In this document: positions 1 through 9,556 of the stretch, in pieces
Numbering within the stretch: position 1 is the stretch's first letter
Layout: every line of letters begins with the position of its first letter
Assembly: GCA_015061765.1 (NCBI GenBank)
Contig: SUVZ01000117.1
Location: forward strand, 1-9,696
Length of the DNA stretch: 9,696 bases
Source: Lentisphaerota bacterium
Lineage (GTDB): Bacteria; Verrucomicrobiota; Kiritimatiellia; RFP12; UBA1067
Reading direction: 5' to 3'
Position numbers and translations under genes: made by a program
The notes under the pieces: model-generated
What the model saw: the letters and a program-made list of their open reading frames with translations, nothing else
Databases searched by the model: none
What the model was told of the DNA's origin: nothing

Positions 1-263
1 GAGCCGATGGCCACAAGCGGTGTTCCTGCCTTGGCGAGGAGTGCTTGAGTTTTTCTGTCCGGCTCAATCCCGGTGACAACTCCTTGACAACCTGAAACGG
101 CGCGTTGCAGTTCGTCGGCAGACTGCACAACACGGATGTCCCAGTGGGTTTCCCTCTTGGCGTAGTCGAAGAATCCCATGAGGAAATCCCGCCATGAAGC
201 GTCGGAAAGCTTCACCGCCACCGCGACGCTTCTGATTTTCCGGGTCGTATTCATTGTTTTCAT
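1..263 (-). CDS. XylR-like transcriptional regulator, N-terminal part (cut by window edge)
   Basis: This is the 5' end of a minus-strand gene that runs off the left edge; 87 codons are visible. The protein has no N-terminal helix-turn-helix. After a few residues it goes straight into a sugar-sensor-like fold: RSVAVAVKLS (about 11-20), a helix around WRDFLMGFFDYAKRE (24-38), WDIRVV (41-46), then GVVTGI (61-66) and TPLVAIG (81-87). That strand-helix-strand order matches the periplasmic-binding-protein-like sensor of XylR-type regulators, which carry their AraC-type DNA-binding domain at the C-terminus (not visible here). An in-frame TAG at 296..294, with no start codon between it and the ATG at 263, excludes an N-terminal extension carrying a LacI-type HTH. 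ATG 254 is an alternative start. It faces the glycan-degradation operon and probably controls it. The family call rests on pattern resemblance, so an orphan sensor protein remains possible. Confidence 0.65.
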   Translation of the reverse strand, partial: MKTMNTTRKIRSVAVAVKLSDASWRDFLMGFFDYAKRETHWDIRVVQSADELQRAVSGCQGVVTGIEPDRKTQALLAKAGTPLVAIG

Positions 264-404: not shown

Positions 405-1751
405 ATGAAATATGCTTCGAGACAAAAATATGCATTGATTGCCTTTTCCGTCATTGCGGGAACGGTAGCCGTTGCGGATATTGAGAGAAATGCGGACAAA
501 TTGATGTCCGAGCATCCGATGTTGCGCACTCTGCATGCAAAGCGGCTGAAAGATGTAATGCTGACGAAGCCAGATTATGTGGTTTATGTGCCGAAACAGG
601 AGATGCATCTTTACAAGAAGACGAATCCGCAGGAGATTGGAGACCGGTACAACGACCATTTTCAGGTGCTTTATGACGACAAGCGGAAACTCTACTACGC
701 GTTCTGGACTCAGGCGTCATGGGAAGGGGCGGGCGATCATCACATCGTGTTTTCCAAAAGTGCCGACGGCGGAAAGACCTGGACGGAGCCTGTGACGCTT
801 GCAGGTTCGGAGCGGCGCGCCTACAAACGGTTGGGGGCGAGCTGGCAGCAGCCGATGCTGTCGAAAAGCGGTCGGTTATACTGCTACTGGAACCAGAAGG
901 TAAGGCAGGGCGGATGCAACGAACTGCTGTACGGATTCTATTCCGATGATGCAGGCGAATCATGGAGCGATCCGGTATTGGTACATTATCCGCGACGTCC
1001 GCAGATTCCCGGATATATCGCCACTGTGAAGTCGGGTTGGATAAACTGGCAGCGCCCGTTGCGGCTTGGTGAGAACGGAAAATATTTCGTCGGTTGTTCC
1101 CGGGGCCCTGCCATCGAATTCTGGCAGTATGAGAACATTGATGACGATCCTCCTGCCGAAGACTTGAAGATATCCTTTTTCGCGTCCGGGACGAACAGCC
1201 TTTCCCGCAGCCGCCTTGCAGAAAAAAGCGATTTCGTTCTCAGTTCCGGCGAGAGCAGGTTTGAGGAGGCTGGAATCGTGAAGCTTCCTGACGGTCGGCT
1301 GTTCGCTCTTGCCCGTACACAGGTCGGTTATCCAGTGTGGAGCGTAAGCGCTGATGGCGGCAGAACATGGAGTGATCCGAAATACTTACGCAGGAAAGAC
1401 GGCGGCAAGGCGTTCCTTCATCCTCGCTCGCCCTGTCCCATTTACGATTGGGTTGCGCCCGAGGCCGGAAGCGGAAAGTATTTCGCCTTTGTGCATAACA
1501 AGTTCAATTTTGAAAACAAGCGTTCTGCGTCCGGTCCGCGCGGTGCGTTGTATTTGATTGCCGGAAAGTTCAATCCCAATGCGGAGCAGCCGATAGAGTT
1601 CTCCGAGCCGAAGTTCTTTCTTGAGCGCAAGAATGCATGGAACTCGTTCTATACGAGCTACACGGTTGTAGGCGACAAGCGCATTCTATGGTATCCCGAC
1701 GGGAAGCACTATCTTCTTGGACGGGAGATCGGCGAGGAGTGGTTCAAATGA
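405..1751 (+). CDS. Secreted BNR/Asp-box sialidase-like protein
   Basis: The 448-residue protein begins with a signal peptide, with likely cleavage after A24 (VAVA before D25). Three Asp-box motifs (S-x-D-x-G-x-T/S-W) mark a sialidase-type six-bladed beta-propeller: S119-W126 (SADGGKTW), S180-W187 (SDDAGESW) and S315-W322 (SADGGRTW). The segment EEAGIVKLPDGRLFALAR (287-304) resembles the strand of BNR_2/sialidase-like proteins that supplies an active-site glutamate (E287 or E288). WNSFYTSY (412-419) is a candidate for the tyrosine-bearing end of the propeller. The classical (F/Y)RIP arginine motif is not recognisable, so neuraminidase activity is unproven; other glycosidases and sialidase-like proteins share this fold. 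The ribosome binding site GAGAGGA (393..399) lies 5 nt before the ATG. It is the first gene of the operon, and its stop overlaps the next start (ATGA). Confidence is high for fold and export, low for substrate. Confidence 0.8.
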   Translation: MKYASRQKYALIAFSVIAGTVAVADIERNADKLMSEHPMLRTLHAKRLKDVMLTKPDYVVYVPKQEMHLYKKTNPQEIGDRYNDHFQVLYDDKRKLYYAFWTQASWEGAGDHHIVFSKSADGGKTWTEPVTLAGSERRAYKRLGASWQQPMLSKSGRLYCYWNQKVRQGGCNELLYGFYSDDAGESWSDPVLVHYPRRPQIPGYIATVKSGWINWQRPLRLGENGKYFVGCSRGPAIEFWQYENIDDDPPAEDLKISFFASGTNSLSRSRLAEKSDFVLSSGESRFEEAGIVKLPDGRLFALARTQVGYPVWSVSADGGRTWSDPKYLRRKDGGKAFLHPRSPCPIYDWVAPEAGSGKYFAFVHNKFNFENKRSASGPRGALYLIAGKFNPNAEQPIEFSEPKFFLERKNAWNSFYTSYTVVGDKRILWYPDGKHYLLGREIGEEWFK

Positions 1752-2575
1752 TCCGGTCAGCCATTCTGCTGTCGTTGATTTATCTAATTGTGCCGTCGGC
1801 AACGGCATCGGCTCTTTCCGTTCCGCTCTGGCCGGAAGGCAGGATTTCCGGCTTCAACGCCGGGCAGACTGTACCATCGCTTGAAGTGGTGCTGCCGGGA
1901 GACCGCACGAACGATGCGTTGCTTATAATAGCTCCGGGCGGAAGCTACATGAAGTGGTGCGAATGGGAAGGCAAGTGTGTCGCCTATTTCAATAAGCGCG
2001 GCATGGCAACAGCACTTCTCAAGTACCGTACGCCGCGTCCACTGGGTGCTGCGAAGCACATTTCTGCATGGCAGGATGCCCAGCGCGCCGTTCGGCTCTG
2101 CAGAAAATATTCCAAGGAGTGGAATGTGAATCCTGAAAGGATATTTTTCATGGGTTTTTCGGCAGGCGGCAATCTTACGCTCCTTGCGGCAACCTCGAGC
2201 CAGACGCCGTCATATGCAAAGGTTGACGACGTCGACGATCTGCCTTGCCATGTCAACGGGGCGATTGCCTGTTATCCTGCCTATGTGCTTTCGGATTGCA
2301 GGAACTTCGACGGTTCCAATCGTGCGAAGGGGAATGACTTAGGCCTTTTGATGGATCCGATTTTCAAGTTCGACACCAAAACCCCGCCTATGTGCTTCTT
2401 GCACGGCGATGCCGACGCACATTCTCCGATGGGGAGCGTGCGGGCATACCACAAGCTGCGCACGATGGGCATACCGGCGGAACTTCATGTGTTTTCAGAA
2501 CGTAAACATGCCGATCTGCCGCGAGGTACGTGGCAGGAACTTGTATGGACATGGATAGAAAGGAATAGGAAATGA
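1748..2575 (+). CDS. Secreted alpha/beta-hydrolase, acetyl-xylan-esterase-like
   Basis: This 275-residue esterase probably removes acyl (likely acetyl) groups from a glycan outside the cytoplasm. The ATG at 1748 is chosen because it overlaps the previous stop as ATGA, is preceded by GAGGAG (1734..1739) at 8 nt, and opens a clean signal peptide (hydrophobic residues about 5-15, likely cleavage after ASA near residue 22). The mature protein opens with VPLWPEG (25-31), common in secreted sugar esterases of this group. The oxyanion-hole region is APGGSY (62-67). The nucleophile elbow is GFSAGG (136-141) with Ser138. The acid is probably Asp223 in HGDADAH, and the base His254 in RKHADLP. All three catalytic residues are in canonical order, so activity is likely. 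An open frame extends upstream to 1637 but lies inside the sialidase-like gene. Substrate is inferred from neighbours only. Confidence 0.85.
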   Translation: MIRSAILLSLIYLIVPSATASALSVPLWPEGRISGFNAGQTVPSLEVVLPGDRTNDALLIIAPGGSYMKWCEWEGKCVAYFNKRGMATALLKYRTPRPLGAAKHISAWQDAQRAVRLCRKYSKEWNVNPERIFFMGFSAGGNLTLLAATSSQTPSYAKVDDVDDLPCHVNGAIACYPAYVLSDCRNFDGSNRAKGNDLGLLMDPIFKFDTKTPPMCFLHGDADAHSPMGSVRAYHKLRTMGIPAELHVFSERKHADLPRGTWQELVWTWIERNRK

Positions 2576-4038
2576 AAAGGACTATCGCGCTTTTTTCCGC
2601 TTCGGTGCTTACTGCCGCTTTTGCTGCGGAAGTGTCGTTCCCTCTCGATTCCGGCGATATCTCGCTTGAGGGAAACTGGAACGGGGTGTTTCCCGGAACC
2701 TCTGACTGTGCTGTGCTGCAACACGCCGGTCCGTACGAAATCTCCAGGAATGTCGAATTCGGGAGCATCGTATCGCTGTCCGGATCGTTGCGGATCAAGG
2801 CCGGCGAAAACGTGTGGATCACCGCCAACAATTCATCCGGCAAGGAAGGCGTGGTGATCAAAGCCAACAAAATCGAAAACGCTATGATTGAAGGCGGCGT
2901 TTACTACATGCGCAACAACGCCAACTTCATGCCGGTGTACGGACGGCATCTTGGAGTCGCCGAAAGCGGCGCTACTGCCACGCTCAATACGGTTACGGTT
3001 ACGAATGCGTATGAGTTTTCCGCGACCAAACGGATATCCGATGCCGTCGTCACCGTTGCTGGGAATTCCCGCATCTACGCTCGCTTCGGCAAAGTGTCGC
3101 ATCGCGACCAGAATGCCGGCAGCCGGAACACGTTGAGAATCGAGGGCGCGAGCAGGCTGCACGTTATTGATCATTTCTACTTTGAGTCGAAAAAAGACGG
3201 TGTTGACGGCACTGGCATGGGCGGTTCGGTTTTTGAGGTTGCCGGGAGGGATACGTTGGTGGATATCGGCCAGAGCCTGATAATGGGCCAGTACGGAGCG
3301 TCCGGAAGGGTCGACGTGGCGGATTGCGCCACACTGCAGGTCGGTTCCAGTTTCCTGATCGGCGGCGCGGATACGCAGAACAGTGGACTGGGAGGCCACG
3401 CGGCTGTTTTCTCCAATTCGGCGACCGGTCTGCTCAATACCGTGTATCTGGGCATGCGGCCCGGCGGTGGAGACAATGTTTTTACGGTTGCGTCCAATTC
3501 ATTCGTCTCTGTAGCTACCATGACCATCGGAAATCAAGCTTCTGGAAACACGCTTGTGGTTGATGATGCCATGCTTGATGTTCGCAGTCAGCTACATATC
3601 GGCTCCAGCAAAAATACTGAGGGAACGGACAATACTGTTATTTTACGCGGTCGCAATCCTCAGTTATGCAACAGGAATGGCAGCACTCAGTGGATATATG
3701 CTTTTAATCGTTCAAAGTTCCGTTTTGAAGTGCCGGAAGGAGGATTTGCCGATATCCCAATCAAGGGATCTCATTTTCACTGGGGTGGAGACGTTACATT
3801 TGAAGTTGAGTGCAAGAAGTTTCGCAATGCCGGTGGCGGTACTATAGTTCTTGCAGAGAGTGGAGGGAGTGCGTGGGTTGATCAAGATTCGGGAAGCAGT
3901 CAGTCAAATCTCGCAGAACGGTTTGTGGAGCTGAACAAGATCCAGCCAGAGGGGTGTTATTTTGAGATTAAGGACAAGCAGATTTTGTATCATGCTTCCT
4001 ATTTGCCGCCGGTCAGAATGAGAGTCATAATCCGGTAG
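2572..4038 (+). CDS. Secreted beta-helix-like repeat protein, function unknown
   Basis: I do not recognise a named family for this 488-residue protein. It starts with a signal peptide (likely cleavage after AFA, residues 16-18). Residues about 185-358 contain irregular repeats of 24-33 residues of the type N-T-hydrophobic-x-hydrophobic, polar turn, L-x-V, then I-G: for example NTLRIEGASRLHVID (186-200), GRVDVADCATLQVG (245-258), DNVFTVASNSFVSV (301-314) and GNTLVVDDAMLDVR (325-338). The alternating hydrophobic strands and Gly/Asn turns suggest a right-handed beta-helix, as in surface proteins and some polysaccharide lyases. The C-terminal third (about 359-488) lacks the repeat and is more charged. 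There is no sorting signal, transmembrane anchor or autotransporter barrel at the C-terminus. ATG 2572 overlaps the esterase stop (ATGA) and follows AAGGA (2560..2564) at 7 nt. Base composition falls sharply near 3590. A glycan-binding, lyase or adhesive role would be guesswork. Confidence 0.75.
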   Translation: MKRTIALFSASVLTAAFAAEVSFPLDSGDISLEGNWNGVFPGTSDCAVLQHAGPYEISRNVEFGSIVSLSGSLRIKAGENVWITANNSSGKEGVVIKANKIENAMIEGGVYYMRNNANFMPVYGRHLGVAESGATATLNTVTVTNAYEFSATKRISDAVVTVAGNSRIYARFGKVSHRDQNAGSRNTLRIEGASRLHVIDHFYFESKKDGVDGTGMGGSVFEVAGRDTLVDIGQSLIMGQYGASGRVDVADCATLQVGSSFLIGGADTQNSGLGGHAAVFSNSATGLLNTVYLGMRPGGGDNVFTVASNSFVSVATMTIGNQASGNTLVVDDAMLDVRSQLHIGSSKNTEGTDNTVILRGRNPQLCNRNGSTQWIYAFNRSKFRFEVPEGGFADIPIKGSHFHWGGDVTFEVECKKFRNAGGGTIVLAESGGSAWVDQDSGSSQSNLAERFVELNKIQPEGCYFEIKDKQILYHASYLPPVRMRVIIR

Positions 4039-4049
4039 GGAAGGTATTC

Positions 4050-7000
4050 ATGATGTTGTTTGCGATTCTCTTTGCGGCTTTTGTCGCCGATGTGCCGGTA
4101 AAGACCGAGGCGCCCTTGAAATTCTATCCGTCGTACGCCGAGGTGCAGGACTCTTCTCCCGGCAAAACGGTTCCGCTCACGCCGATTAAAATACGCAAGC
4201 CGGGGCGTTTCTGGATGTTTGTCGAGTCTCCGCGCAGGATAGAGTTCACTCTCCGTCGCGAGGCTGATGCGGGTTCTGCCCTCGACAAAAAGGTTGCTCA
4301 GATGCAGTTCAACTTCATTCAAGTGGAATGTGCAGGACAGCACCGCCGCCGCTGGCCCGCGCCGGGCGAAAAGGATTTCACCTTCAAGTGGGATTCTCCG
4401 CATCCAGGGTTCTATACGCTGGATTTCGATCCCGGAAAGGCATGTTCGCTCGTGCCGGTTTCGGCGAATGTGCCGTTCGCATTGGAAACGGCGGAAGGCT
4501 TCGAACAGCTTGCTCAAGGCAAAGGGTGGAATGCGCATAACCGTCCGTTAAAGGAGCTGGACGAGGCCGCCTCGAAAGTGAAGCTCGAAAAGCCAGTCAA
4601 CATCCTCTATCTTGGCGATTCCCTTTCAGATTTCGACCGCGGTTCGAACCATGTGGATACAGTTGCTGAATATCTTGCAAAGCACAACCCCGGCAAGGTG
4701 AAGTGCTGGAATTTTGCAAAAGGAGGCGATTGCATCAGATACATAATTCAGCGCATGGACGGAAAGGGAAAGGGTGACTGGAAGGCTCGCTATGACGACC
4801 TGTGGAACCGCAAATACGATTGGGCGTTCATTCTGCTCGGGCATAACGACACAAAAACCAATCTGAAGAACGATTTCAAGGAGCCGTTCACGCCGCGCGC
4901 GCAGCAGCACGAAATGTACGATGAACTGATCCGCAGACTTCGTGCGCGAGGAATCGGGCGCATTGTACTTCTGTCGTCCACAAGTTCGAATTTCGATGTG
5001 TGTAACCATTGGGTCACTTCACGTCTTGACCGCGCCAGAGCTTCCGGCAAAGGGATATCGCTCTTCGGTCAGCCGGAGCAGATGGAGGTGTTCAACAAGG
5101 CTCTGCGGGAGATCGCGGTGCGCAACAATGTCGAATATGCCGATTTGTACGACAAGATGAAGGCGCGAAAAGATAAACCGTCCATGCTTCGCTTCACTGA
5201 CGGCGTTCATCTTTCAAAGAAGGGGTATGATTTTGTGGCGGTGGAGACGTTGCGGTATCTGGCTAAAAATCCAGTCCCTAAAATTACGATGGAAAAAACG
5301 GTCGCACCAGCCGCAACGGTCAGATCGGCAAAGTGCGCGGAGAAGTCGCCTGTCCAAAAATTTCCTGAAGGTGACGCAATCAGGAACGGTTCGTTTGAAG
5401 TGCGCGGGCAGGAAAACGCTTGGACTCTGCCAAAAGGATGGCGCATATCTCGCGGCGAAGGCATGAACGGCGGCGGTGGACTGGTGTTTGAATGCACTGA
5501 AAAGCTCGAACAGCCTGCAAAAGCCGAGCAGATTTCAGATGTAGCTCCCGGGCGGATATATGATTTCGAGGCGTGGGTGGATGGTGCTATCGATTGTGCG
5601 AAGGGTGCGCAGGTGGATATTCAGTTTCTTGATGCTGACGGCAAAGTGGTTTCTGGGGTGTATTCCGGCACAAGGGCGAACAACAAGGGATGGGGGCGGC
5701 TTAGCGTGCGCACGAAGAGATTGCCTGCCAATGTGCGTAAAGTGCGCATCCGTCCGAGTGTTCCCGCCGGGGCGAAAGGCCGGGTTTCGTTTGACGACAT
5801 TTCTCTTAGTCCCCACCGGGTAATGCCGGTTACAGCGCTGTGTTCGTCGCACTACCGCAACGAGGCGGGGATTGATGACGGTATCGTGACCTTCTACGCC
5901 GGGATAGATTTGGCGGATACAGGGTGTCTGAAAGATGAAGTGGATGTATTTTTCGTTTACGAAACGCCAGAAGGGAAGATCGTCCGGAGAAAGGCGGAAT
6001 CCTTCAATGGCATTGATGCAAGCATCGGGATATGGCCTGCGGCGTTCATGGAGGGGCCTCAGGAGATTTCAGCTGAGATTGTCGCAAAAGACGGACGTAC
6101 GCTTGGAAGCCGCAAACTGACATTCTTGCGCATAAGGAGGCGTCCGCGCCGCAATGTTGCGATCGATCGTTACAAACGCGTTACGGTCTCCGGTAAACCG
6201 TTCTTCCCTGTCGGAATATATGCAGGAACGGCAAATTCCAATATGGTCGAACGATTGGGCAGGTCTCCATTCAACACGCTGATGGCGTATCATGGACTAA
6301 CCCGCGAGATGCTGGATTGGTGCCATGAAAATAATCTGATGGCAAATGTTCACGCTGGAGATTATCAGACATCCGAAGCCGCCATTGCCAAAAAAGTTTC
6401 TAATTTGAAGAACCACCCTGCGCTTCTCGCCTGGTTGGTGAACGACGAGAAGCCGGTCTCGGCACTGCCGCAGCTTAAGACTCGTTATCGTACCGTACTG
6501 GATAATGATGACGGGCATCCGACATGGGCGGTGCTGTATCAGGTGGATCAGATTCGCGAATACATCGGAACGTGTGACGTAATCGGAAGCGACCCTTATC
6601 CGGTTCCCCATGAATCGCTCTCGTGGGTGCGTAGGTCTACCGAAAAGGCCCGTAAAGGCACTTTTGGTGCGTTGTCCCTCTGGCAGACGTCGCAGATATT
6701 CGATTGGGCCGCGTACAAGACGAAGGCGGTGCCGGGAACGGACGTATCGAAGTATCGAGCGCCCACGCTTGCGGAAATGAAAGCGATGGCATGGTTGGAG
6801 ATTGCCGGCGGCGCAAACGCGCTCTTTATGTATTCGTACTCGCCGTTAGAAAAGATGGATTGGCGGGATCCATTCGAAAAGCGCTGGAAAGATGTGTGTG
6901 AATGTGCGTCGGAGATTGTGAAAATGTCATCTGTCCTGCTTTCGGTTGATGATCCTCCGCATATCAAAAACATCCCGGATCAGCTTTCGGTGCGTACGTG

Positions 7001-9125
7001 GCGTACGGGCGCAACGGTGCATGTTCTGGTGTGCAATGCAAGCGGAAAGGCGCTTAAGACGAACCTGCCGCTCGGCGAGGGCAAGTACGAGAATATGCGT
7101 ACCGTTCTCGGTGGCGGAGTCTCGATGTTGAAGAAAAATACTTTGGCGCTTGATTTTGCGCCAGAAGGCTACGCGTTCCTTTCATTCGACGGCGATAAGC
7201 CGATAGACTTTGAGGAGTTGAAATACAACAGACCGGGCGCGAGCGCCTACATTGATGCCGGCACATGGGCGCAGCCGCTTGTGCTGGACTATGATTCGGA
7301 CGGCGATCTTGATATTGTCGCGCTTTCGAAGAGCGCTTTGACCAACGCCTTCATTCTCTATGAAAACCCCACTCCCAAAGGTGTGAAATGCAAGATGCCG
7401 GTATTCCGGAAGGGACGCACCATTTCCACAGATGTATGCAACGGACATATCTCTTCTCAGCTTTTCGACGGCAAATGGATTGTGACCAGACCCGGCGGCG
7501 TGATGTGGGATCCGTTGACGCGCTGGGGCAGGTTTACCGATATTCGCGGGGTGGAGTATGATCCTATCCAACGCGATACAAAGAATACGGAAAAGGCGAA
7601 TTACCGGGTGTGGCGTCTCGTTGATTTTGATGGGGACGGATTGGAAGATGTTGTTATGGGGCTTGATTCGTGGACAAAGTATGGCGTTTTGAAAGGGAAT
7701 GCCTACGATTCCGCCGGCGTATGGACAAATTGCCTGCTTCAGACACGCCTGTATTGGAGCAAATGTGTATCAGGTCGCGGGAAGGATGCGAAATACGCAA
7801 GGACGGAAGAACTGCTTCTTGCGGATGGCACTTCCTTTCAGACTGATGGCGATCCGAGTCCGATGTTCGAAGATTTTGATCTCGACGGAGATCTTGATAT
7901 CGTATGCGGCGATTTTACCGGCGGCTTCTGGTATTTTGAAAATACAGGCTCGCGCACCGCTCCCAAATATGCGGCACGCCGCCGTTTAACTGATACACTT
8001 GACGCGGAGGTTCGCTGCGAGGTGTGCATGCAGGTTCCTCTGTCCGTCGATTGGGATGGGGACGGCGATGCTGATATTGTTGAAGGCGAGGAGGATGGGC
8101 GCATCGCCTTGATTGAAAATCTCGGAGTGAAGAATGGGGTTGTGAGATTCTCTCAGCCGCAGTATTTCCGGCAGGAGGCGGAAGATCTTGATTTCGGATG
8201 CCTTTCGACACCGTTCGGGTGCGATTGGGATGGAGACGGCGACTGGGATCTGATATGCGGTAATTCGGCAGGACGTCTGGCGTTTATTGAAAACCTTTCC
8301 GGAGCGGGTGTTTACAGGCCGAAATGGGCGGAACCAGTGTTGATGTCTGCTGGCGGCGAAACCATCAACATTCGCGCAGGAATGAACGGTTCAATTCAGG
8401 GACCGGGTGAACAAAGCTGGGGTTATACAGTACCGTCGGTCGCGGATTGGGACGGGGACGGCTTCTTGGATGTTATGATGAACGACATTTGGGGGCATGT
8501 GCGGATATACCGCAATCCCGGCAGGAAAGGCACGCTTGATCTGGAAAAACCTCAACCGATAGAAGTCGAGTGGGAAGGTGCGAATCCCGAACTCGCCTGG
8601 GGGTGGGAGAAGCCCAAGGGCAAGGAACTGCTTACCCAGTGGCGTACACGCGCACTCATGTACGACTGGAACAAGGATGGGCTTATGGACTTGATCGTGC
8701 TTGATCAGGAAGGGTATCTTGCCTGGTTTGAACGCTTCAAGAACCCTTCGGGAAAACTCTCTCTCAAGCATCCCAGGAGAGTCTTCTTGCGCGATGGGCG
8801 GATGGTTCCGCTTCTCTGGTCCAATGGTGCAGCAGGAAAGAGCGGACGGCGGCAGTTCTGCATTGCCGATTGGAACCGTGACGGCAAAGAAGATTTTCTC
8901 CTCAATGGTGGGAATGTACAGCTTTATCGCCAGATCAAAAAGACGGATGAAAGCTGGACGTTCTCCATGGGGGGCGGATTCGGAAAGCGCAAGCTTGCTG
9001 GACATCCGTCTTGTCCTACAGTTGTAGATTTCGATAACGACGGAGTTCCGGAAGCCATTGTCGGAACAGAAGACGGCCGCTTCTTCCATCATCTGAACCC
9101 CTATGCGTTCAATTGGGGAAAATGA
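4050..9125 (+). CDS. Giant secreted SGNH esterase / CBM-like / TIM-barrel / FG-GAP propeller protein
   Basis: This 1691-residue protein is a mosaic. In order: a short hydrophobic leader (about 1-13, FVA before D14) with no basic n-region; a beta-rich domain (about 25-145); an SGNH/GDSL esterase (about 181-408) with all blocks visible, namely GDSLSD with Ser191, AKGGD with Gly225, GHND with Asn266, and DGVH with Asp384/His387; a CBM4/9-like beta-sandwich (about 441-588: IRNGSFE, GWGRLSVR, VSFDDISLS); a second beta-sandwich (590-700); a glycosidase-like TIM barrel (about 702-965: GKPFFPVGIY, ALLAWLVNDEKP with candidate acid Glu800, GSDPYP); a small beta domain (966-1048); and an FG-GAP/VCBS propeller (about 1068-1691) with nine Asp-rich motifs. 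The predicted role is de-esterification and possibly cleavage of a glycan, with the propeller and CBM-like domain for binding. No second catalytic Glu is assignable in the barrel, so glycosidase activity is uncertain. GGGAAGG (4038..4044) serves ATG 4050 or ATG 4053; the gene starts 11 bp after the previous stop. Confidence 0.85.
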   Translation: MMLFAILFAAFVADVPVKTEAPLKFYPSYAEVQDSSPGKTVPLTPIKIRKPGRFWMFVESPRRIEFTLRREADAGSALDKKVAQMQFNFIQVECAGQHRRRWPAPGEKDFTFKWDSPHPGFYTLDFDPGKACSLVPVSANVPFALETAEGFEQLAQGKGWNAHNRPLKELDEAASKVKLEKPVNILYLGDSLSDFDRGSNHVDTVAEYLAKHNPGKVKCWNFAKGGDCIRYIIQRMDGKGKGDWKARYDDLWNRKYDWAFILLGHNDTKTNLKNDFKEPFTPRAQQHEMYDELIRRLRARGIGRIVLLSSTSSNFDVCNHWVTSRLDRARASGKGISLFGQPEQMEVFNKALREIAVRNNVEYADLYDKMKARKDKPSMLRFTDGVHLSKKGYDFVAVETLRYLAKNPVPKITMEKTVAPAATVRSAKCAEKSPVQKFPEGDAIRNGSFEVRGQENAWTLPKGWRISRGEGMNGGGGLVFECTEKLEQPAKAEQISDVAPGRIYDFEAWVDGAIDCAKGAQVDIQFLDADGKVVSGVYSGTRANNKGWGRLSVRTKRLPANVRKVRIRPSVPAGAKGRVSFDDISLSPHRVMPVTALCSSHYRNEAGIDDGIVTFYAGIDLADTGCLKDEVDVFFVYETPEGKIVRRKAESFNGIDASIGIWPAAFMEGPQEISAEIVAKDGRTLGSRKLTFLRIRRRPRRNVAIDRYKRVTVSGKPFFPVGIYAGTANSNMVERLGRSPFNTLMAYHGLTREMLDWCHENNLMANVHAGDYQTSEAAIAKKVSNLKNHPALLAWLVNDEKPVSALPQLKTRYRTVLDNDDGHPTWAVLYQVDQIREYIGTCDVIGSDPYPVPHESLSWVRRSTEKARKGTFGALSLWQTSQIFDWAAYKTKAVPGTDVSKYRAPTLAEMKAMAWLEIAGGANALFMYSYSPLEKMDWRDPFEKRWKDVCECASEIVKMSSVLLSVDDPPHIKNIPDQLSVRTWRTGATVHVLVCNASGKALKTNLPLGEGKYENMRTVLGGGVSMLKKNTLALDFAPEGYAFLSFDGDKPIDFEELKYNRPGASAYIDAGTWAQPLVLDYDSDGDLDIVALSKSALTNAFILYENPTPKGVKCKMPVFRKGRTISTDVCNGHISSQLFDGKWIVTRPGGVMWDPLTRWGRFTDIRGVEYDPIQRDTKNTEKANYRVWRLVDFDGDGLEDVVMGLDSWTKYGVLKGNAYDSAGVWTNCLLQTRLYWSKCVSGRGKDAKYARTEELLLADGTSFQTDGDPSPMFEDFDLDGDLDIVCGDFTGGFWYFENTGSRTAPKYAARRRLTDTLDAEVRCEVCMQVPLSVDWDGDGDADIVEGEEDGRIALIENLGVKNGVVRFSQPQYFRQEAEDLDFGCLSTPFGCDWDGDGDWDLICGNSAGRLAFIENLSGAGVYRPKWAEPVLMSAGGETINIRAGMNGSIQGPGEQSWGYTVPSVADWDGDGFLDVMMNDIWGHVRIYRNPGRKGTLDLEKPQPIEVEWEGANPELAWGWEKPKGKELLTQWRTRALMYDWNKDGLMDLIVLDQEGYLAWFERFKNPSGKLSLKHPRRVFLRDGRMVPLLWSNGAAGKSGRRQFCIADWNRDGKEDFLLNGGNVQLYRQIKKTDESWTFSMGGGFGKRKLAGHPSCPTVVDFDNDGVPEAIVGTEDGRFFHHLNPYAFNWGK
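7287..9053 (+). repeat. Nine FG-GAP/VCBS calcium-motif repeats within the giant protein gene
   Basis: Nine copies of a D-aromatic-[DN]-x-D-G type motif begin at residues 1080, 1192, 1275, 1334, 1392, 1466, 1539, 1607 and 1660 (DYDSDGDLD, DFDGDGLED, DFDLDGDLD, DWDGDGDAD, DWDGDGDWD, DWDGDGFLD, DWNKDGLMD, DWNRDGKED, DFDNDGVPE). Such loops bind calcium between blades in integrin-alpha-like propellers. Spacing ranges from 53 to 112 residues, wide in the first part and tighter later. The three DWDGDG copies are also close at DNA level (8049, 8223, 8445), consistent with duplication. The last copy ends in Glu rather than Asp. Confidence 0.85.
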
Positions 9126-9154: not shown

Positions 9155-9556
9155 ATGAGGAAAATATTGATTGTTGTTGCGGTGTTATCAGTGTTCGCCG
9201 ATAGCATCGCGGCGGCGAACGAGGCCGAACAGGTGAATGAGGCGGCGTCCGTGTTCGATGGCGTGAAACCGTCTGAAATGCGCGGCGACAGGATTCTCGA
9301 GCGTGACCGTAGCGTAATCATTCCTCAGCGTTACACATTTGATAAAGATTGGATTCTCAACGGAAAGTCGGCGTGGGAGTTCATCCGCCAGATCCGCGCC
9401 GGTAAGAATCTGCCGCGCGAATTCAATGCCGTCGCTGAATACAATCCGCCGTTTGCGTTCGCCACTCACTGCCAGGCGGAGCTCTTCTGGAATTCGGATG
9501 ATTCATGGGAGGAGATCGCGAAACGCGCCCGTATGCGCTCGCGCCCGGAACGGTGA
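9155..9556 (+). CDS. Small secreted protein of unknown function, possibly truncated
   Basis: The 133-residue product starts with a signal peptide (hydrophobic about 4-17, SIAAA before N22). ATG 9155 is preferred over the in-frame ATG at 9113 because GAGGAG (9143..9148) sits 6 nt upstream and because 9113 lies inside the preceding gene. I recognise no family. The mature part is polar and aromatic-rich: RYTFDKDWILNGKSAWEFIR in the middle, then EYNPPFAFATHCQAELFWN and DSWEEIAKR near the end. The end (RMRSRPER) stops abruptly after what looks like a helix, as though this were a piece of a larger secreted protein that has lost its C-terminal part. However, the ribosome binding site, leader and tight spacing look functional. 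It lies 29 bp after the giant gene and 18 bp before the next. Confidence 0.65.
   Translation: MRKILIVVAVLSVFADSIAAANEAEQVNEAASVFDGVKPSEMRGDRILERDRSVIIPQRYTFDKDWILNGKSAWEFIRQIRAGKNLPREFNAVAEYNPPFAFATHCQAELFWNSDDSWEEIAKRARMRSRPER

Follow-up and report, generated by a model that had tools for sequence, protein, structure and literature searches.

Clan GH-A is a well-studied group of glycoside hydrolases (GH) marked by catalytic residues on β4 and β7, and in its enzymes the asparagine that precedes the acid/base glutamate contacts the substituent at position 2 of the −1 sugar. In GH20, it is the 2-acetamido group of the substrate that attacks C1, with an Asp–Glu (DE) pair in the enzyme; the DE pair of GH123 is placed at the end of strand 4. 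FG-GAP/VCBS propellers are common in bacteria of the Planctomycetes–Verrucomicrobia–Chlamydiae (PVC) group. The window analysed here, 9,696 nucleotides of contig SUVZ01000117.1 from a gut Lentisphaerota bacterium (assembly GCA_015061765.1), encodes a fusion protein in which an SGNH esterase domain, a central module with a GH-A-like barrel and an FG-GAP propeller share one chain. The first-pass annotation of this DNA did not recognise the module order. This was a fair remark, but it matters more that its middle module has been widely shuffled and carries no label, so that interest moves from the order to the module itself. As judged from sequence, the module forms a large family for which neither Pfam nor NCBIfam has a name (window copy), much copied in the Kiritimatiellae lineage and joined to many enzymes.

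The fusion gene (4050..9125, forward strand) encodes 1691 amino acids from ATG to TGA without an internal stop. The protein is probably secreted; it starts with a hydrophobic stretch that, read by eye, is likely a signal peptide (4050..4106). A beta-sandwich follows at residues ~20-180 (4107..4589), its strands being taken from the model of the homologue P0025, and then the SGNH domain at residues ~181-403 (4590..5258), supported by Pfam, alignment and structure matches. Lipase_GDSL_2 matched residues 188-394 above the cut-off (E 5.6e-18), and the SGNH blocks lie at the positions first given for them: S191, G225, N266, D384 and H387 did not vary among the 11 SGNH-bearing sequences aligned, window copy included. 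The SGNH fold and the catalytic Ser/His/Asp are common to this domain and to CE2-type and other SGNH carbohydrate acetylesterases (2wao; PbeAcXE 7toh; Axe2). Some solved enzymes with a sandwich and an SGNH domain cover residues 14/16-410 of the P0025 model, counted from the first and last aligned residue only, and for 2wao and 7toh the aligned range extends back into the sandwich. The SGNH domain is a candidate O-acylesterase, with O-acetyl the most likely group. Unlike these acetylesterases, the fusion protein, known here from its sequence, joins SGNH to a GH-A-like module and a propeller.

The module itself comprises a CBM_4_9-like (carbohydrate-binding module, CBM) beta-sandwich at residues ~439-592 (5364..5825), assigned from profile matches in relatives and the model; a beta-sandwich at residues ~593-699 (5826..6146), termed Ig-like from a reading of its modelled strands; a (β/α)8 barrel at residues ~715-965 (6192..6944), placed by the model, alignments and profiles; and a C-terminal beta-sandwich modelled at residues ~979-1047 (6984..7190). 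The propeller occupies 7191..9122 and was delimited with Pfam, a motif scan and Foldseek. FG-GAP_3 matched seven stretches above the cut-off (best 1607-1671; whole-protein E 4.3e-30), nine D-x-[DN]-x-DG motifs fall within residues 1080-1670, and CRTAC1 was the best Foldseek match of the P0025 model. The first-pass calls of an SGNH esterase, a TIM barrel and a calcium-motif FG-GAP propeller are therefore borne out by Pfam and predicted structure, and that of a CBM-like module agrees with the modelled sandwich. Repeats and calcium motifs are common to this propeller and to CRTAC1-like FG-GAP/VCBS propellers, from which it differs in being combined with SGNH and the barrel. In P0173, P0188, P0195, P0220, P0250 and P0234, an FG-GAP propeller shares the chain with SASA-type esterase (PF03629), BNR sialidase-like or GH92 (PF07971) domains, according to precomputed Pfam assignments.

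No Pfam profile matched residues 440-1040 of the fusion protein, no NCBIfam profile matched it anywhere, and a PDB search with its single sequence returned nothing better than E 0.029. Structure prediction from a 111-sequence alignment modelled residues 430-1047 with a predicted local distance difference test (pLDDT) score of 95.1 and a predicted template modelling (pTM) score of 0.91, resolving the ~600-residue module into its four domains. Eight strands were predicted (721-727, 743-748, 764-768, 792-799, 825-829, 844-847, 876-882 and 924-928), so that residues 702-965, where a TIM barrel had been proposed, do contain a (β/α)8 barrel in the model. CBM_4_9 (PF02018) matched 26 of 51 module copies at E≤1 (best 3.4e-9), the window copy not being among them. 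The GH42 profile (PF02449) likewise gave no match to the window copy at E≤1 and matched 26 of the 51 copies (best 1.1e-5). Profile comparisons of the barrel with GH42 and GH2 reached probabilities of 97-99%, and GH158 was the best PDB sequence match (E 1.1e-11). By profile, the barrel descends from clan GH-A (GH42/GH2). Its fold and acid/base Glu are common to GH42 beta-galactosidases and other clan members (GH2, GH164, GH140 and GH158), and GH42-like features include an 'HPAlLaW' run into strand 4, D-x-Tyr-Pro after strand 6 and 'GA.G' before strand 8. The module differs from them in having Asp for Asn before the Glu, no strand-7 acid, and additional CBM and Ig-like domains.

In the model, D799-E800 lies at the end of strand 4, with E800 directly after the strand; D848 and Y850 follow strand 6, Q882 ends strand 7 and Y928 is on strand 8. 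Conservation was assessed in aligned sets of 106, 111 and 40 copies, the first two of which overlap. Asp799 was present in 106/106 and 111/111 copies, whereas the corresponding pair is Asn-Glu in 30/30 GH42 and 25/25 GH2 sequences, and hhalign pairs D799 with the GH-A Asn. The acid/base Glu and the Asp before it were near-invariant also in the 40 distant copies, at 19-34% identity. None of the 111 aligned copies had an acid at positions 875-884, and all of them had Gln882; the GH42 nucleophile is Glu in 29/30 sequences. With both the GH-A Asn and the strand-7 nucleophile missing, an ordinary GH-A mechanism is unlikely. Glu800 had been proposed as the acid/base of a clan A glycosidase: its conservation after strand 4 of a GH-A-related barrel agrees with this, while the loss of the other two residues does not.

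We tentatively favour a bifunctional protein that would be secreted for trimming a decorated glycan and would combine an O-acetylesterase with a retaining glycosidase; for the glycosidase, substrate assistance on 2-acetamido sugars is probable. The SGNH domain would strip O-acyl groups, most likely O-acetyl, while the central module would bind the glycan through its CBM4/9-like domain and cut glycosidic bonds with the GH-A-derived barrel; the propeller may serve as an accessory binding or adhesion domain. Glu800 would act as general acid/base, and Asp799 would orient and charge-stabilise the 2-acetamido group, which would attack C1 as in GH20 and GH123. As strand 7 has no acid, the nucleophile should not be an enzyme side chain there. 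The barrel resembles GH123 and GH20 in having Asp next to Glu where strand 4 ends and, on this reading, in lacking an enzyme nucleophile; a DE pair combined with a strand 7 free of acids is the arrangement of substrate-assisted N-acetylhexosaminidases. For GH123, PMC11087588 describes the DE motif and attack on C1 by the 2-acetamido group itself. We saw no profile kinship with GH123 or GH20 (hhalign 0.1-0.2%; GH123 0.1%), and the GH123 profile (PF13320) matched none of the window proteins or module copies scanned, so that the DE layout would be a convergence from a GH-A ancestor.

Several observations weigh against this reading. One copy among 106, in locus L061, has Glu at 882. Profile alignments place the GH42 nucleophile opposite Trp878 or a gap, not Q882, and the firm point at strand 7 is taken to be the absence of an acid rather than the equivalence of Q882 with the nucleophile position. 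The relative P0004 has lost E800, D848, Y850, P851 and Y928 while its frame is still open. A survey of neighbouring genes found none that was conserved. Finally, the partner domains of the module are mixed, plant-type (GH28, GH106, GH43 and AXE1) and host-type (BNR, GH20-like and GH123), and hence give no pointer to an N-acetylhexosamine substrate.

The alternative that survives best, although we consider it unlikely, is that the barrel works as a glycosidase by an ordinary mechanism, either double displacement or inversion, with a plant cell-wall glycan as its substrate. Its second carboxylate would then be Asp848 (after strand 6), Asp885 or Glu909, with which helix 7 begins. D848 and E909 are each found in 105/106 copies, and both the fusions to plant-type enzymes and the weak pectin acetylesterase-like match of an adjoining gene suit such a substrate. 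However, D-x-Tyr-Pro at D848 also occurs in canonical GH42, so that this Asp was probably inherited rather than newly recruited as a nucleophile, and it is conserved in 35/40 distant copies. E909 is replaced by Gln in 2/111 copies and, among the 40 distant ones, by Gln in six and Ala in one, while D885 is Asp in only 70/111.

The module (query, window 5364-7170) was searched in 59 related genomes and matched in 37. Near-full-length copies, covering >450 model positions, were counted among open reading frames (ORFs) of regions fetched from these genomes; there were 80, with a maximum of 16 in one genome of the Kiritimatiellae lineage (G006), 11 in G002, 10 in G003 and seven each in G001 and G005. 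Nineteen of the 80 were in fusion ORFs, defined by at least 120 further residues on one side, and 61 were free-standing. Fusion partners in the related genomes were GH28, GH106, AXE1, GH20-like, GH31, GH43, aldose epimerase, MGH1-like GH, GDPD, metallophosphoesterase and, on the C-terminal side, SGNH, as well as SGNH plus GH106. The last of these occurs in L097, one more fusion ORF with a broken copy. Fusions in L048, L082 and L050 had no accepted Pfam match beyond the module, L050 having sub-cut-off matches only. Public proteins additionally joined it to DUF4838, BNR, GH123, GH88/rhamnosidase-type and propeller domains. At the scale of the phylum, 56 of 288 genomes matched at E≤1e-30, with few candidates scored per genome (four in nearly all cases).

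Some individual loci show further arrangements. L097 (G003) is a triple fusion in the order partial module, SGNH, GH106, and L061 (G052) joins the module to an aldose 1-epimerase domain at 3923-6835 on the reverse strand. A second, diverged barrel type was found in GDPD-type proteins: P0007, P0028, L044 (518-3640, forward strand) and L043 (4081-6765, reverse strand), with GDPD itself in P0007, P0028 and L044. In P0007, P0028 and L043, Asp-Asp replaces Asp-Glu after strand 4 and Gln is on strand 7. The chain of P0007 contains both types of barrel, and in L044 and L043 the diverged-barrel gene adjoins a module fusion, whose partner in L044 is GH28 according to Pfam.

The broad range of partners, on either side of the module as would be expected of a binding module, also suits a non-catalytic, carbohydrate-binding pseudo-glycosidase, the whole protein being an esterase anchored by large binding modules. 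This we regard as quite unlikely. The strand-7 nucleophile is indeed gone in nearly all copies checked, and P0004 retains a decayed barrel. This protein (1141 aa) consists of an Ig-like domain, barrel and propeller, without SGNH or CBM, and is 81% identical to the window protein over the propeller, 82% over the C-terminal sandwich, 58% over the barrel and 48% over the Ig-like domain. Its active-site loss in an open frame indicates that the barrel can persist without catalysis, and P0004 appears to be a natural case of a pseudo-enzyme kept in frame. Yet the acid/base Glu and the new Asp are near-invariant down to 19-34% identity, and the large unfused majority would be unusual for a targeting module. 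The near-invariance of active-site residues in all three aligned sets makes it less likely, as far as the barrel is concerned, that two large binding modules tether an esterase, as the first-pass annotation suggested.

The complete fusion is present in the nearest genome, G001, at 98%, and the same order was found at 98% identity in L001/L119. Full-length relatives include P0001 (about 94%, with 45 member sequences) and P0003 (74%), and two Kiritimatiellae metagenome-assembled genomes, from water deer rectum and sheep rectum, gave matches to the barrel query at 99% and 96%. Recurrence of the three-part order in other records indicates that the fusion is not an assembly join of parts that always occur separately, a concern raised in the first-pass annotation. 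The full architecture is narrow, as among the 59 related genomes only G001 and G003 matched the module at >90%. In G003, codon 1374 of the fusion gene (L118) is an in-frame stop that falls in the propeller part and is either a real nonsense change or an assembly error. On a FastTree tree of 211 modules (44 fused; 167 taken as free by default), no fewer than 22 switches were needed between the free and the fused state, and no fewer than four between SGNH and the rest (without a shuffle control). Within the lineage of the window, the parts have themselves been recombined, as shown by P0025 (SGNH and propeller without the module), P0010-P0015 (SGNH and module without the propeller) and P0004. That the fusion is recent and without shared substrate logic, its parts acting alone after shuffling among secreted proteins, is improbable: the free/fused changes, P0025 and P0010-P0015 fit it, but SGNH and the module came together in widely separated branches of the tree, and in either order.

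The fusion gene is the fourth in a tight run whose genes show signal-peptide-like starts (by eye). The run opens with a BNR_2 (sialidase-like) gene (405..1751, forward; Pfam E 7.1e-16), followed after an ATGA overlap at 1748 by a free alpha/beta-hydrolase esterase, BD-FAE by Pfam (1748..2575, forward), whose best NCBIfam match, to the pectin acetylesterase PaeX, scored 86.8 bits where the cut-off is 550. A second ATGA overlap, at 2572, leads to a gene for a 488-aa protein with a signal-peptide-like start (2572..4038, forward), which ends 11 nt before the fusion gene and has only a weak, sub-cut-off match to DUF5975 (E 0.0035). Upstream, a divergent AraC-type regulator (3..263, reverse) is cut by the window edge; it is whole in L119, with Peripla_BP_3 and an AraC helix-turn-helix domain. 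Directly after the fusion gene, a 133-aa ORF with a signal-peptide-like start and no Pfam match (9155-9556, forward) could represent the beginning of a gene that is broken. The tight run, ATGA overlaps and divergent regulator fit a glycan-induced operon, although this context does not name the glycan. The neighbouring free esterase could point to a heavily acylated substrate, as the first-pass annotation supposed.

For the family as a whole, we advance with still more reserve than the bifunctional reading the proposal that the barrel stands for a glycosidase family that is so far unclassified. Its ancestor, a GH-A barrel, would have lost the strand-7 nucleophile, exchanged Asn for Asp and converged on DE-type substrate assistance as in GH20 and GH123. 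The family would have multiplied in PVC bacteria, above all in the Kiritimatiellae lineage of the window, and would serve there as an all-purpose cutting unit joined to esterases, glycosidases and phosphodiesterases. If true, the GH-A fold would offer a natural example of a switched mechanism, approachable through one free-standing protein of ~650 residues, and a role would be suggested for a family much duplicated in gut Kiritimatiellae as well as for 'hypothetical proteins' that are joined to known carbohydrate-active enzymes.
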